A DNA stretch of 64,000 nt, taken from positions 9,495-73,494 of the forward strand of contig NZ_KB893653.1 of NCBI RefSeq assembly GCF_000374145.1, given 5' to 3'. This DNA comes from Neomegalonema perideroedes DSM 15528. GTDB lineage: Bacteria > Pseudomonadota > Alphaproteobacteria > Rhodobacterales > Rhodobacteraceae. Positions within the stretch are counted from its first letter, which is position 1. The number at the start of each line of letters is the position of its first letter. The notes under the pieces are model-generated. The model saw nothing but the letters and a program-made list of their open reading frames with translations, was not told the origin of the DNA and did not search any database. The translations under genes and the position numbers were made by a program. Shown here in pieces: positions 57,095-61,556 of this stretch.

Positions 57095-58114
57095 TCAGCG
57101 TTTCAGCCAGAAAGGCGCCGTCAGCGACAAGGCGAGAATCCGGGCGATGTGATGCGACCCGACGTAAGCCGCCTCGAAGCCCATGGTCAGGCCGATCACC
57201 GCCATGGCCTCGGCGCCGCCCGGCGCGAAGGCGAGGGCCGCCTGCGCGAAGGGCACGCCCGAAGCCCATGAAGCCAAAGCCGCCCCGATTCCGCCGACCG
57301 CCAGCAGCAGGACCACCAGAGCCGCCGCCGCTCCGAAGGCCGCGCGCAGCTCCGCCCGCGTCACGCCGAGGAAGCGCGCTCCGATCAGCGCCCCGACCAC
57401 CACATAGGCGGGCGCGGCGAACCAGACCGAGGGCCGCCCATGGACCACGCCCGTCAGATGCAGCGTCATGCTGGCCAGAAGGCCGCCGATCACATAGCCC
57501 GCAGGCGTCTTGATCCGGGTCAGCAGCCAGCCGCAGAGCCCGCCCGCGGCGAAGACCAGCGCCAGTTCGAAGGGATCTCTGAGAATCTCCGGCGCGGGCA
57601 AAGCCGCAGGCGGCGGCAAAGCGGCGTCGAGCGCGACGGGCAGAAAGGCCACCAGCACGATCAGCCGCAGAGTCTGGAGCAAAGCCACCCGCCCGACGTC
57701 GCATCCGGGCGTCGAGAGGGCCGTGGCCATCACCGCCGAGAGCGCTCCCGGCGCCGAGGCCAAACGCGCCGTATTGGCGTCATAGCCGAAGCCTTGGCGC
57801 AAAAGCCGCGCGCCCAAGACCATCATGGCGACCACCGCCGCCGCCAGAATGACGAAGCTCGCGGGCCAGCGCGCGGCCTCCTGAAGCGTCCCCTCGTCCA
57901 CGCTGGAGCCGAGCATCACGCCGAGAGTCAGAAAAGCCGCGTCGCGCAGCCCATTGGGCGGATTGGGATCATGCCCGAGGCCCGCCAGAACCAACGAGGC
58001 CGCCGTCGCGCCGAGCAGCCAGCCCGCCGGAAGCCCCAAGGACTCCGCCAGAGCGCCCCCCGCCAAAGCCGCGGCCAGCAAAGCCGCCAAACGCATGAGC
58101 GCCCGCGCCGTCAT
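57095..58114 (-). CDS. AbrB family membrane protein (often called ammonia monooxygenase-like)
   Basis: A 339-residue protein with about ten hydrophobic segments in two similar halves, each with a GWLLGA/GYVIGG-type motif (LPAGWLLGATAAS and TPAGYVIGGLLAS), plus SAPGALSAVM and FAPGGAEAM. This is the COG3180 transporter-like family; the label AbrB or ammonia monooxygenase is historical and no catalytic residues are present. Substrate unknown. It lies 59 bases upstream of the parC start on the same strand. Confidence 0.87.
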   Translation of the reverse strand: MTARALMRLAALLAAALAGGALAESLGLPAGWLLGATAASLVLAGLGHDPNPPNGLRDAAFLTLGVMLGSSVDEGTLQEAARWPASFVILAAAVVAMMVLGARLLRQGFGYDANTARLASAPGALSAVMATALSTPGCDVGRVALLQTLRLIVLVAFLPVALDAALPPPAALPAPEILRDPFELALVFAAGGLCGWLLTRIKTPAGYVIGGLLASMTLHLTGVVHGRPSVWFAAPAYVVVGALIGARFLGVTRAELRAAFGAAAALVVLLLAVGGIGAALASWASGVPFAQAALAFAPGGAEAMAVIGLTMGFEAAYVGSHHIARILALSLTAPFWLKR

Positions 58115-58290
58115 GACTTCATCTCCTTCGCGCGGCTTGTCCCGCCCGCCTCAGGCGGCCTTCATGCGCCCGCGAAGCCCCCCGCGTCTAGGGGGAGAGG
58201 CCGCTTTGCGCAGGCCCGCCCTTGCGGTCCCGGCGCCGAGAGGCCAAAAGGCCCCGGTCCCTTTCCGCCCGATCCGCTTTCGGAGGCCCC

Positions 58291-59046
58291 ATGCCGCGCT
58301 TCAAACTCATCGTGGAATATTCCGGCGCGCCCTTCGCGGGCTGGCAGCGTCAGGCGAACGCCCCGAGCGTGCAGCAGACTCTCGAGGAGGCCCTCCGCAA
58401 GCTGGAGCCCGAAGCGCCCCCGGTCATCGCCGCCGGACGCACCGACACGGGCGTCCACGCCATGGGGCAGGCGGTCCATTGCGATCTTGAAAAGGACTGG
58501 GATCCCTTCCGCCTGACCGAAGCTCTGAACAATCATCTCCGGCATGATCCCGTGGCGATTCTGGCGGCGCGGGTCGTGGATTTCGGCTTCAACGCCCGGT
58601 TTTCGGCTCTGGAGCGGCTTTACCGCTATAAGATCGTGAACCGCCGCGCGCCTCTGACCTTCGCCAAGGGGCTGGCCTGGCGGGTGAAGGCGCCCTTCGA
58701 CCTCGCGGCCATGGCGGAGGGCGCGGCCCATCTGCTCGGACGCCATGACTTCACCACCTTCCGCTCCTCGCAATGTCAGGCGGATTCGCCTTTGCGGACG
58801 CTCGACGAATTCGCGGTGCGTGCGACGCCCGAAGGCTGCGAGATCACCGCCCGCGCCCGCAGCTTCCTGCATCATCAGGTGCGCTCGATGGTGGGGAGTC
58901 TGGCGCTGGTCGGCTCGGGGCGCTGGGCGCCTGCCGAGATGCGCCGCATCCTCGAAGCCCGCGACCGCGCCGCCTGCGGGCCTCTCGCGCCCTCCGAGGG
59001 GCTTTATCTGGAGGCCGTGCGCTATCCGCCTCCTTGGGCGGACTAA
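58291..59046 (+). CDS. truA: tRNA pseudouridine(38-40) synthase TruA
   Basis: A 251-residue enzyme that modifies uridines at positions 38-40 of tRNA anticodon stems. It starts [11 protein letters not shown] and has the catalytic Asp52 in [17 protein letters not shown]-type LYRYKIVN, and [11 protein letters not shown] near the C-terminus. ATG 58291 with CGGAGG ahead is chosen; the frame is open upstream but lacks family similarity. Length fits TruA. Confidence 0.96.
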
Positions 59047-59080
59047 AGCGTTTTCCAGCGAAGCCGCGACCAATTCAAAA

Positions 59081-59125
59081 CTGAGAGCGTTTGAAGGACC
59101 CCGCCTGATCTGAAAGCGCTCTCAG
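59081..59125. repeat. Intergenic inverted repeat after truA
   Basis: CTGAGAGCGTTT (59081-59092) pairs with its inverted copy at 59113-59125 with a single-base bulge; the loop is 20 bases. Just upstream, TAAAGCGTTTTCCAGCGAAG (59044-59063) resembles widely repeated intergenic elements of alphaproteobacterial genomes. It may also act as truA terminator, though no T-tract follows. Confidence 0.6.
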
Positions 59126-59270
59126 CCGGCCGACCGTCCCCTTTTGGGGCGGATATTTCCGGAAAACCTCTGGAAACCATGATTTTTGGAACAAATCCGC
59201 GTTCAAACCTTGAGCCTAAGCCTCAATTCCTGAGGATTCCGCGCGCAAATCCCGTCATGGCGCGGTCCTT

Positions 59271-59318
59271 GCTCTCCGAAGGTGAAGATTTCAACCTTCA
59301 CCCGCCGGCTCGGAGAGC
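59271..59318 (+). promoter_or_regulatory. Nested hairpin that hides the ribosome-binding site of the TbpB-like gene
   Basis: Outer stem: GCTCTCCGA (59271-59279) pairs perfectly with TCGGAGAGC (59310-59318). Inner stem: GGTGAAG (59281-59287) pairs with CTTCACC (59296-59302). The GGAGAG ribosome-binding site (59312-59317) is entirely inside the outer stem and the ATG is at 59322. This arrangement fits translational control by temperature, a ligand or a protein. Confidence 0.7.
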
Positions 59319-59321
59319 GAT

Positions 59322-60239
59322 ATGGGACAATCCGCCTTCCTGCGAATCCTCGCCGCGCTTGCGGCCCCGACCCTTCTGGCGGCCTGCGGCGGCGGTGGAG
59401 GCGGAGGGTCCGGCGCCTCCTCCTTCGCCTCGACTCCCGCCATTTTCTCGGCGGCGCCGGGCAAGGTCGTCGCGCAGGGCTTCGGCCGAGATTTCGCCGT
59501 TCAGGACGACGAGACGGCGAAAATCGCCCGGATGTCGGATTTCTCCGCCGTCTCCGCCGTCGAGCTGAGCCTCACGCGCAATGCGGCGGGCGCGGTCTCG
59601 GAGATCGCTCTGACGACCCCGCATCTCTCCACCGCCTGGAGCAAGGACGACAAGCAGCTCTCCGTGGACGACGGCCTGCTCGTCGGCTACCAGAGCAAGG
59701 CGGGCCGCACGCTGGCCGCCGTGATCGCCGCGCCGGATCAGGCGGGCTTCGAGCATCAGACCTTCGGCTTCTGGTATGACGTGGACGCCTCCTCCGGTCT
59801 GAACCGCTTCGGCGCGGTCAGCGTCGGGCAGGAGACCGCCGCCGCCGATCTGCCGAAATCCGGCAAGGCGACCTTCCTCGGCGAGGCCGTGGGCATGCGC
59901 GTCGTCGGAGGCGATTCCCCCGATTTCCAAATCCTGCGCGCCAAAGCCCGGCTTGAGGCGGATTTCGCCGGCCGCACCGCCAGCTTCCGCACCACGGAAA
60001 GCTCGGTCGGCCGCGACGCGGCGGGCGCAACGATCTTCGACGAATCCCTGAATATGAGCGGCGCCCTGAGCGCGGCGGCGGACGGCCGCCTCTCGGGCCG
60101 GGTCGAGACGACGGGCGGTCTGGCCGGAAGCCTCGACGCGCGATTCTACGGCCCCGGCGCGACGGAGGTCGGCGGAATCTTCTCGCTGAACGGGGGTTCG
60201 GAAAGCCTCTCAGGCGGCTTCGGCGCGCGCAGGGAGTGA
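59322..60239 (+). CDS. Surface lipoprotein, TbpB-like beta-barrel
   Basis: A 305-residue lipoprotein. Lipobox LAAC with Cys22 is followed by a Gly-rich tether (GGGGGGGS). The C-terminal half has the TbpB-like barrel pattern SGKATFLGEAVG, ADFAGRTASF and DARFYGPGATEVGG ending SGGFGARRE. Family members bind transferrin, hemoglobin or other iron/heme sources in pathogens; environmental relatives have unknown ligands. No TonB receptor or Slam gene is adjacent. The ribosome-binding site lies in a hairpin (59271-59318), suggesting regulated translation. Confidence 0.85.
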   Translation: MGQSAFLRILAALAAPTLLAACGGGGGGGSGASSFASTPAIFSAAPGKVVAQGFGRDFAVQDDETAKIARMSDFSAVSAVELSLTRNAAGAVSEIALTTPHLSTAWSKDDKQLSVDDGLLVGYQSKAGRTLAAVIAAPDQAGFEHQTFGFWYDVDASSGLNRFGAVSVGQETAAADLPKSGKATFLGEAVGMRVVGGDSPDFQILRAKARLEADFAGRTASFRTTESSVGRDAAGATIFDESLNMSGALSAAADGRLSGRVETTGGLAGSLDARFYGPGATEVGGIFSLNGGSESLSGGFGARRE

Positions 60240-60258
60240 GCCCCCCGCAAAGGGCGGC

Positions 60259-60732
60259 TCACTCGGAGGGCCGCCCGAAGAAGCCCGGCGCCATGAAGTC
60301 CAGCGGCGTGGAGGCGTAGCGCGCGCGCCAGGGAATATCTGTGACGACGCAGGAGGCCGGACGGCTGGCGAAGCCCGCATCCGCGCCGTGATCGGCGAGG
60401 AAGCTCAGATCCAGCAGCATCCAGGAGCCGCCGATCCCCACCCGCGCGCCGCGCAGCAGATTCCCCACATAGGCGTCGATTCCCAGCTCCGGCCCGTCCG
60501 GCCCCGGAACCGTGGCGTAGGCGCCGCAGAAAGAGACCTTGCCGCCGTCCTCCCGCGCCCGCAGCGCGAGCGTGGTGACCGAGCCGCCCTTCCATTCCCC
60601 CGGATAAAGCGCGTAGCCCGGCCCGAGGCTCTCGCCGGAGGTCGGGCGCGACGTGGCGCAGCCCGCCAGCAGAACGCTCCCGAGCAAGCCGCAGGCGAAA
60701 ATCCTCGTCGAGACGCTCCGGGCGGAGATCAT
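60259..60732 (-). CDS. Small lipoprotein encoded after olsA
   Basis: A 157-residue putative lipoprotein of no recognised family. The N-terminus has a lipobox LAGC (Cys25) after a hydrophobic stretch. ATG 60732 overlaps the stop of the acyltransferase gene (ATGA) and GGAG lies nine bases upstream; an upstream in-frame ATG at 60762 would disrupt the signal peptide. The body contains YPGEWKGGS and ends FMAPGFFGRPSE; three further cysteines are present. Being third in the olsB-olsA unit, it may act at the envelope, but nothing in its sequence proves that. Confidence 0.7.
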   Translation of the reverse strand: MISARSVSTRIFACGLLGSVLLAGCATSRPTSGESLGPGYALYPGEWKGGSVTTLALRAREDGGKVSFCGAYATVPGPDGPELGIDAYVGNLLRGARVGIGGSWMLLDLSFLADHGADAGFASRPASCVVTDIPWRARYASTPLDFMAPGFFGRPSE

Positions 60733-61556
60733 AGGGCGGCGCTCCTCACCTGCGCCTCGCAAAAGGCGGCCATGCGTTTGCGATCCGGGATCTCGGTCGG
60801 GTCGACGGGGGAATGGAAGGTCACGGTCAGCCTCCCCCCCTTCGAGCGCGCCAGCACGGCGCCGGCCGAGTCTCCAAAACTCAGATCGTCATAATAGCCG
60901 TAAAACCGCCGGGGCAAATGCGCAGGCGGGGTATATTTCAGCGAAACCGGCTGAGCCTTGGCGCCGGTGGCCTGAAAGATCGCGAAGAGCGTGGTTTTGA
61001 AGGGCAGCACGACGAGTCCGTCGCTGCTGGTGCCCTCGGGGAAGAAGCAGAGCAGATCCCCCTCGCGGATCCGCTTGACGAGCCGGGCCTCATGCTCGCG
61101 GGCCTGAGCCGGGCGGCGGTCGATGAATTCGGCGTCGGCGATGCGCGCGATGAAGCCCACCACCGGCCAATGCGCCACCTCGGATTTCGAGACGAAATGC
61201 GCGGGCGCCGCCGCCGCCAGAGCCAGAATGTCGATCCATGAGACGTGGTTCGCCACCAGAGCCCCCGGCTCCTTCATGGGCGCGCCGCGAATCTCCAGCT
61301 TCACGCCGAGGATCCAGACGAGGATGCGCCCCCAGATCCCCGCCATCCAGCGATCCGGCTGACGCCCCGGCCAAAGCCGCGCCAGCAGATAGACCGGCAC
61401 CAGAATCGCCGTGACGGCCAGAATCAGCGCCCCCCGCCGCACCGCCCGCAGCTTCTCGCGCAGCGTCGGCGGCGGCAGAGGATCGGGCGGCGCGAAACGC
61501 CGCTTGAACGGCTCCGGCGCAGGCGGAGCGGGAGTCGCGGAAGGCGTTTGGGTCAT
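60729..61556 (-). CDS. olsA: Lysophospholipid acyltransferase (PlsC family), OlsA-type
   Basis: A 275-residue membrane-associated acyltransferase. After a Pro-rich N-terminus there is a membrane helix (about 41-60), then the catalytic NHVSWID with the HX4D motif (His104, Asp109) and the FPEGT motif at 172-176. Because it overlaps olsB by ATGA, the likely substrate is lyso-ornithine lipid, giving ornithine lipid; a general phosphatidic acid synthase role cannot be excluded. It is followed by a coupled lipoprotein gene. Confidence 0.85.
   Translation of the reverse strand: MTQTPSATPAPPAPEPFKRRFAPPDPLPPPTLREKLRAVRRGALILAVTAILVPVYLLARLWPGRQPDRWMAGIWGRILVWILGVKLEIRGAPMKEPGALVANHVSWIDILALAAAAPAHFVSKSEVAHWPVVGFIARIADAEFIDRRPAQAREHEARLVKRIREGDLLCFFPEGTSSDGLVVLPFKTTLFAIFQATGAKAQPVSLKYTPPAHLPRRFYGYYDDLSFGDSAGAVLARSKGGRLTVTFHSPVDPTEIPDRKRMAAFCEAQVRSAAL

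Follow-up and report, generated by a model that had tools for sequence, protein, structure and literature searches.

The gene for a TbpB-like lipoprotein in Neomegalonema perideroedes DSM 15528, here called tbpB, carries its Shine–Dalgarno (SD) sequence in a nested hairpin, and the 5′ strand of that hairpin overlaps the −12 region of a sigma-54 promoter match. We propose, with confidence just short of even, that the promoter is built into the hairpin that sequesters the ribosome-binding site (RBS), forming a lock whose state would depend on where the transcript starts. The elements lie in a stretch of 64,000 nucleotides (the window; contig NZ_KB893653.1, positions 9,495 to 73,494) of a genome of 3,409,949 bases (G000), and were compared with those of the tbpB orthologue in a second genome of the same genus (G001). 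In window coordinates, with the arms taken from the sequence, the features are as follows.

58291–59046, plus strand: truA (tRNA pseudouridine synthase; Pfam PF01416, 141.5 bits), presumed source of read-through RNA
59156–59176, plus strand: candidate upstream activating sequence, the dyad TTTCCGGA-AAACC-TCTGGAAA, spanning about −128 to −108 relative to the predicted start
59258–59273, plus strand: match to a sigma-54 promoter of the −24/−12 type, TGGCGCG-GTCC-TTGCT, with GG at 59259–59260 and GC at 59271–59272
59271–59279, plus strand: outer left arm GCTCTCCGA, the anti-SD strand, also promoter −13 to −5
59281–59287, plus strand: inner left arm GGTGAAG, about −3 to +4 of the predicted start
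59284 (±1–2 nt), plus strand: predicted sigma-54 transcription start, from the usual distance between GC and start
59296–59302, plus strand: inner right arm CTTCACC
59310–59318, plus strand: outer right arm TCGGAGAGC, which holds the SD sequence GGAGAG (59312–59317)
59322–60239, plus strand: tbpB, 305 amino acids, signal peptide with LLAAC lipobox (lipobox by eye)

In the proposed mechanism, a putative enhancer-binding protein at the upstream dyad would activate sigma-54 polymerase at 59258–59273, and transcription would start near 59284, within the inner left arm. The resulting mRNA would lack the anti-SD strand, leaving its RBS as open as the RBSs of ordinary genes in G000. RNA derived from upstream, whether from truA, which we assume as a source, or from stray promoters, would bear the whole hairpin and be untranslatable. 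Promoter choice, not ligand or temperature, would set the readability of the message, and the surface lipoprotein would be produced solely when its activator is on. That the hairpin serves as a read-through lock of this kind is a purpose we infer, at somewhat below an even chance; more tentative again is the idea that the −12 half of the gene's own promoter acts as the anti-SD strand and renders transcripts of other origin untranslatable.

tbpB and its neighbourhood

The C-terminal domain of the tbpB product matches Pfam PF01298 (TbpB_B_D) with 40.1 bits (cut-off 26), in keeping with the name used in the preliminary description of this DNA; no NCBIfam model matches the product at E 1e-20. The gene is flanked by truA on the same strand, with 275 nt between the truA stop and the tbpB ATG, and by a small lipoprotein gene on the opposite strand. 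One orthologue, 75% identical, is found among the two genomes of the genus, in G001, where the gene neighbourhood read from the sequence is that of the window. Across 394 genomes of the family, a homologue search at E 1e-8 gives any match in 7, and the best match outside the genus is 32% identical. A search with 106 bases of leader DNA against 390 genomes of the order retrieves, besides the window, two fragments of 25–27 bases that were taken as chance matches.

A second TbpB-like lipoprotein gene is present in the same genome (G000:C2:97045–97887; locus L007, 1476 onwards). It is 32% identical and adjoins a tRNA gene; its longest perfect SD stem is 4 bp, and it has no sigma-54 site scoring at least 9/12.

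A nested hairpin over the ribosome-binding site

The outer stem consists of 9 perfect base pairs and the inner stem of 7, with the ATG at 59322 three bases past the stem; this geometry, including the position of GGAGAG in the outer stem, had been described correctly in every coordinate. The 66-nt segment 59265–59330 has a folding energy of −32 kcal/mol (z −4.76), a stability reached by 0 of 200 shuffles. The fold of the 161-nt leader, a sequence that occurs once in G000, stands out less (z −2.05; 4 of 200 shuffles).

The main rival to a start-site-dependent lock is coincidence: a sigma-54 promoter and an RBS, each conserved on its own account, would be complementary by accident and the hairpin functionless, an explanation to which we give appreciable but minority weight. 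Several counts favour it. Perfect SD stems of at least 9 bp are present in 4 of the 214 called leaders, with that of tbpB included, and in 14 of 2,000 dinucleotide shuffles of the tbpB leader, and by folding energy alone 19% of the 214 leaders do at least as well. The nested 9+7 stem arises in 9 of 20,000 dinucleotide shuffles (a nested 8+6 stem in 75 of 20,000), so that with ~3,300 genes, a number estimated from genome size, one or two are expected genome-wide by chance. The nested stem is thus unusual for a single gene, not for a whole genome, and the earlier judgement that a 9+7 pairing is unlikely by chance holds for one leader and carries less weight across all of them.

An upstream open reading frame (ATG 59257) was considered as a means of opening the hairpin and set aside: no SD precedes it, and the gapped alignment with the orthologue puts +1 and −1 indels inside it (by eye). 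Further upstream, after truA, a 12-bp stem GAGAGCGTTT...AAAGCGCTCTC occupies 59081–59125 in a stretch that is not alignable to the orthologue. Beside it, AGCGTTTTCCAGCGAAG resembles sequence 3′ of the second TbpB-like gene (L007, ~2390) and is possibly a dispersed repeat.

A probable sigma-54 promoter in the 5′ strand of the hairpin

The promoter match, which the preliminary description does not mention, agrees at 11 of 12 positions with the sigma-54 consensus TGGCACG-N4-TTGCW (PMC4999443), with GG and GC 10 bp apart. When GG and GC are fixed, no other site on the two strands of the window scores at least 11; two sites reach 10 and 21 reach 9. Its counterpart in the orthologue, TGGCGCG-ATCC-TTGCT, also scores 11/12 and also lies 64 nt before the ATG. 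Genome-wide, the looser pattern TGGCNCN5TTGCW occurs 23 times in G000 against 7 in the reversed control, and 21 times in G001 against 9. Of these sites, 11 of the 23, chosen for a plausible start downstream, and 10 of the 21 were read individually; one of the 11 in G000, at an exosortase-like gene (L112), seems to lie inside an upstream coding region. Sites of this pattern precede genes for a P-II protein (glnB) and a urea-type ABC binding protein (urtA), both identified by eye; glnB and urtA are usual sigma-54 targets. Each genome encodes PF04552 (rpoN) once, and the NCBIfam sigma-54 subfamily model scores 698.8 bits against a cut-off of 499. Strong sigma-54 activator domains number eight in G000, with NtrC, NtrX and RtcR named over the NCBIfam cut-off. 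Judged from these sequence matches, the sigma-54 promoter of tbpB is very probably real.

Transcription from sigma-54 promoters usually starts about 12 nt past the −12 GC. With GC 59271–59272 as −13/−12, +1 would fall near 59284, within the inner left arm, and the outer left arm would therefore occupy −13 to −5 and remain untranscribed from this promoter. The preliminary description had named a start downstream of 59279, which would leave the left arm out of the mRNA, as refuting its reading of the hairpin; such a start is what the promoter match predicts.

Computed RBS accessibility depends on the transcript start

The computed cost of opening the SD sequence is 13.3, 13.5 and 6.8 kcal/mol for transcripts from −150, from −64 and from the predicted start, respectively, and the orthologue gives 11.6, 10.5 and 6.8 kcal/mol. 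Ranked by sequestration among 188 sampled G000 leaders with an SD sequence, tbpB stands 2nd, 1st and 30th for these three transcripts; the orthologue stands 2nd, 3rd and 13th of 64 leaders in its region. Because these leaders were called with a simple gene finder, some of their starts may be wrong. The RBS is accordingly locked in any RNA with the whole leader, as had been claimed. By loss of structure from the long to the short transcript, tbpB ranks 2nd of 188 in its genome and the orthologue 5th of 64 in its region; an SD-opening difference of at least 6.7 is counted for one leader, which is L040 and not tbpB. The ranks in the genome of the window, extreme for both the long and the short transcript (1st and 30th), and the high ranks of the orthologue (3rd and 13th) argue against accidental complementarity.

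A lock in the promoter strand is absent from nine leaders of six other sigma-54-linked genes, so the sigma-54 genes of these genomes do not have one as a rule. The sigma-54-linked leader of a 485-aa protein in G000 loses 5.6 kcal/mol relative to its −150 transcript, whereas the leader of this protein in G001 shows no such loss (6.5 versus 6.3).

Conservation of the leader

Aligned between the two species, the leader shows two conserved islands with diverged sequence between them, and the gene-side island starts with the promoter match. The orthologue hairpin retains eight perfect outer pairs and one G·U, which replaces the A–T pair 59279/59310, together with six inner pairs, the basal inner pair being broken by a G to A change at 59281; the outer right arm is identical. 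Three observations are in keeping with coincidence: no compensatory change separates tbpB from its one orthologue, the orthologue fold is unexceptional (z −1.57; 10 of 200 shuffles), and in conservation the tbpB leader, 87% identical from −60 to −1, comes no higher than 9th among the 16 leaders compared. The promoter and the RBS alone explain much of this conservation. Changes affect 2 of 32 paired and 5 of 16 unpaired positions in the gapped alignment (Fisher p 0.03), a difference that holds with the gapped alignment only; in the gapless MAFFT alignment, which shows 14 mismatches, 5 of these fall within the inner right arm. Against accidental pairing, CTCCG after TTGCT is invariant in the tbpB leaders of both species, unlike the bases after TTGCT in the glnB, clpX-like and 471-aa lipoprotein leaders, which differ between species (by eye).

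Nine distant homologue or paralogue loci were also taken, five of which have readable leaders; L020 and L021 (no usable leader), L022 (partial match) and L005 (no anchor match) were dropped. The longest perfect SD stem in the five readable leaders is 4–5 bp. Conserved pairing, on which the first interpretation of the hairpin had been made to depend, is therefore present within the genus, where the one orthologue pairs, and absent from the five leaders outside it. The distant homologue L006 has a sigma-54-like site (9/12) at −49.

Hairpin opening and operator readings

The preliminary description had suggested a cis-regulatory RNA, in which the main mRNA would come from upstream and the hairpin would yield to heat or to a ligand, protein or small RNA. 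This reading accommodates the full sequestration of the RBS in long transcripts and the strong 66-nt fold, and we nevertheless consider it unlikely. As to heat, in silico folding between 15 and 70 °C gives an SD pairing probability of at least 0.998 up to 70 °C, whereas Neomegalonema (formerly Meganema) perideroedes Gr1T grows at 15–35 °C (PMC4511698), and an RNA thermometer was rejected, since the SD is not released in the physiological range in silico. ROSE and FourU thermometers likewise pair the SD in a hairpin just 5′ of the AUG, but the tbpB stem is perfect, GC-rich and does not melt in the growth range. Rfam covariance models run over 58000–61000 give no match up to E = 1, in agreement with the earlier remark that the leader falls outside known riboswitch classes. 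A leader controlled by a ligand or a protein needs an upstream start, and a simple consensus scan of 58900–59400, a weak and crude test, yields no sigma-70-type promoter, which counts against such control. The predicted sigma-54 start, downstream of the left arm, also speaks against it, as does the lack of an antiterminator-like alternative partner for that arm (by eye). A lock on read-through RNA is a more probable role for the hairpin than the sensing of temperature or nutrients.

Dyads near promoters are often operators, and the arms here flank and overlap −13 to +35. That the inverted repeats are repressor operators acting at the DNA level is more improbable still, because the spacing of the inner arms, 8 nt in the window, is 9 nt for the orthologue (gapped alignment), unlike a rigid operator, because the perfect match of the arms to the SD would be incidental, and because the arms show, by counts only, no regulon-like recurrence: the outer-arm pattern occurs in 7 places in G000 and 11 in G001 (reversed controls 1 and 2), the inner-arm pattern in 2 places in G000, and both arm pairs together, in G000, at the tbpB leader alone.

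A candidate activator site upstream

The dyad at 59156–59176 matches at 7 of 8 positions in both species, and its centre is ~118 nt upstream of the predicted start. The block around it is identical between species at 28 of 34 bases, and the enclosed 19-mer begins at the same distance from the ATG, 162 nt, in each species, although the intervening stretch has diverged. This fixed distance from the ATG suits an activator site, which is expected 80–200 bp upstream of a promoter of this type, making the dyad a candidate site for an enhancer-binding protein. Sites with at most three mismatches number 13 against 8 in the control for G000, and 19 against 14 for G001. No dyad regulon was found in the two genomes, in which matches without mismatch occur at tbpB alone; a three-mismatch match near the activator loci L128/L132 is conserved. 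The dyad was also considered as the truA terminator and rejected: it is terminator-like in the window, but the orthologue has no T-run.

Comparison with known systems

Longer early transcripts of T4 gene e form an inhibitory structure, late-promoter transcripts without its 5′ part are well translated, and close relatives retain a late promoter where the 5′ strand of the hairpin is encoded (PMC3014915). In the same account, the leaders of gene e (lysozyme), soc, 49 and I-TevI are alike in that a long RNA initiated upstream hides the SD, and a dedicated promoter in the 5′ strand of the hairpin yields RNA without that strand, which is translated well. At tbpB, the SD is sequestered in the long transcript and accessible in a short transcript that lacks the 5′ strand, given the predicted start, and it is this match to the gene e arrangement that leads us to propose a start-site-dependent lock. 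The T4 leaders differ in belonging to a phage, in using the late sigma factor gp55 and in having been demonstrated experimentally, whereas tbpB is chromosomal, would use sigma-54 with a presumed distant activator, and has a predicted lock.

In the transposase genes of IS10 and IS50, read-through RNA sequesters the RBS (fold-back inhibition) and the element's own promoter starts inside the repeat. Those repeats are the ends of mobile elements, without sigma-54, whereas tbpB is a host lipoprotein gene. The likeness of tbpB to sigma-54-dependent −24/−12 promoters with activator sites lies in the consensus match, the encoded RpoN and activators, and the upstream dyad as a candidate activator site; it departs from the usual promoters of this type in that its −12 region is also the perfect complement of the gene's own RBS. 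Sigma-54 combined with an RBS hairpin was not found in open-access full text and may be published elsewhere.

If the proposed lock is real, the logic of T4 gene e would hold for a host gene with a sigma-54 promoter, and the strict activator dependence of sigma-54 would reach translation too, without a read-through leak. RBS hairpins found in sequence scans would then need a check for a promoter in the 5′ strand before being labelled thermometers or riboswitches, and sigma-54 would control a surface lipoprotein of the TbpB type in a filamentous organism of activated sludge. Should the hairpin be coincidental, the probable sigma-54 promoter of tbpB remains.

Other sigma-54-like sites in the two genomes

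The sigma-54 site at the glnB-like gene (G000:C1:1005254–1005269, minus strand; L067) lies within a 9-bp perfect inverted repeat, GCGCCGCAT...ATGCGGCGC, which is shorter in G001 (L054; both by eye). Another sigma-54-like site is found 50 nt (the predicted UTR) before the gene for a Ser-rich protein (L111 484–1440, minus strand; G000:C2, ~375.9 kb). This protein has a PEP-CTERM-like tail, VPVPGG...FRRQSF, and the exosortase-like gene of L112 is encoded in the same genome (by eye). An RpoN-dependent PEP-CTERM gene has reportedly been linked to floc formation in another sludge bacterium (PMC9850573).

Tandem intergenic repeats are present in both genomes, as three copies with a period of 137 in G000 (C1, ~739.7–740.1 kb; L061 1351–1740) and as two copies in G001 (C10; L068 1501–1740). 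Each repeat comprises the sigma-54-like TGGCGCCGGAYTTGCT, ~75 nt, and then a GC hairpin with a T-run, a layout that makes small RNA genes in tandem their probable identity. Rfam gives no family above its cut-off for them (suhB/mmgR, 27.6 bits against 41). G000 also encodes a LuxO-like activator that falls below the cut-off of its model (NF041946, 576.8 against 800); together with the tandem repeats, it may, by analogy, form a Qrr-like set-up.
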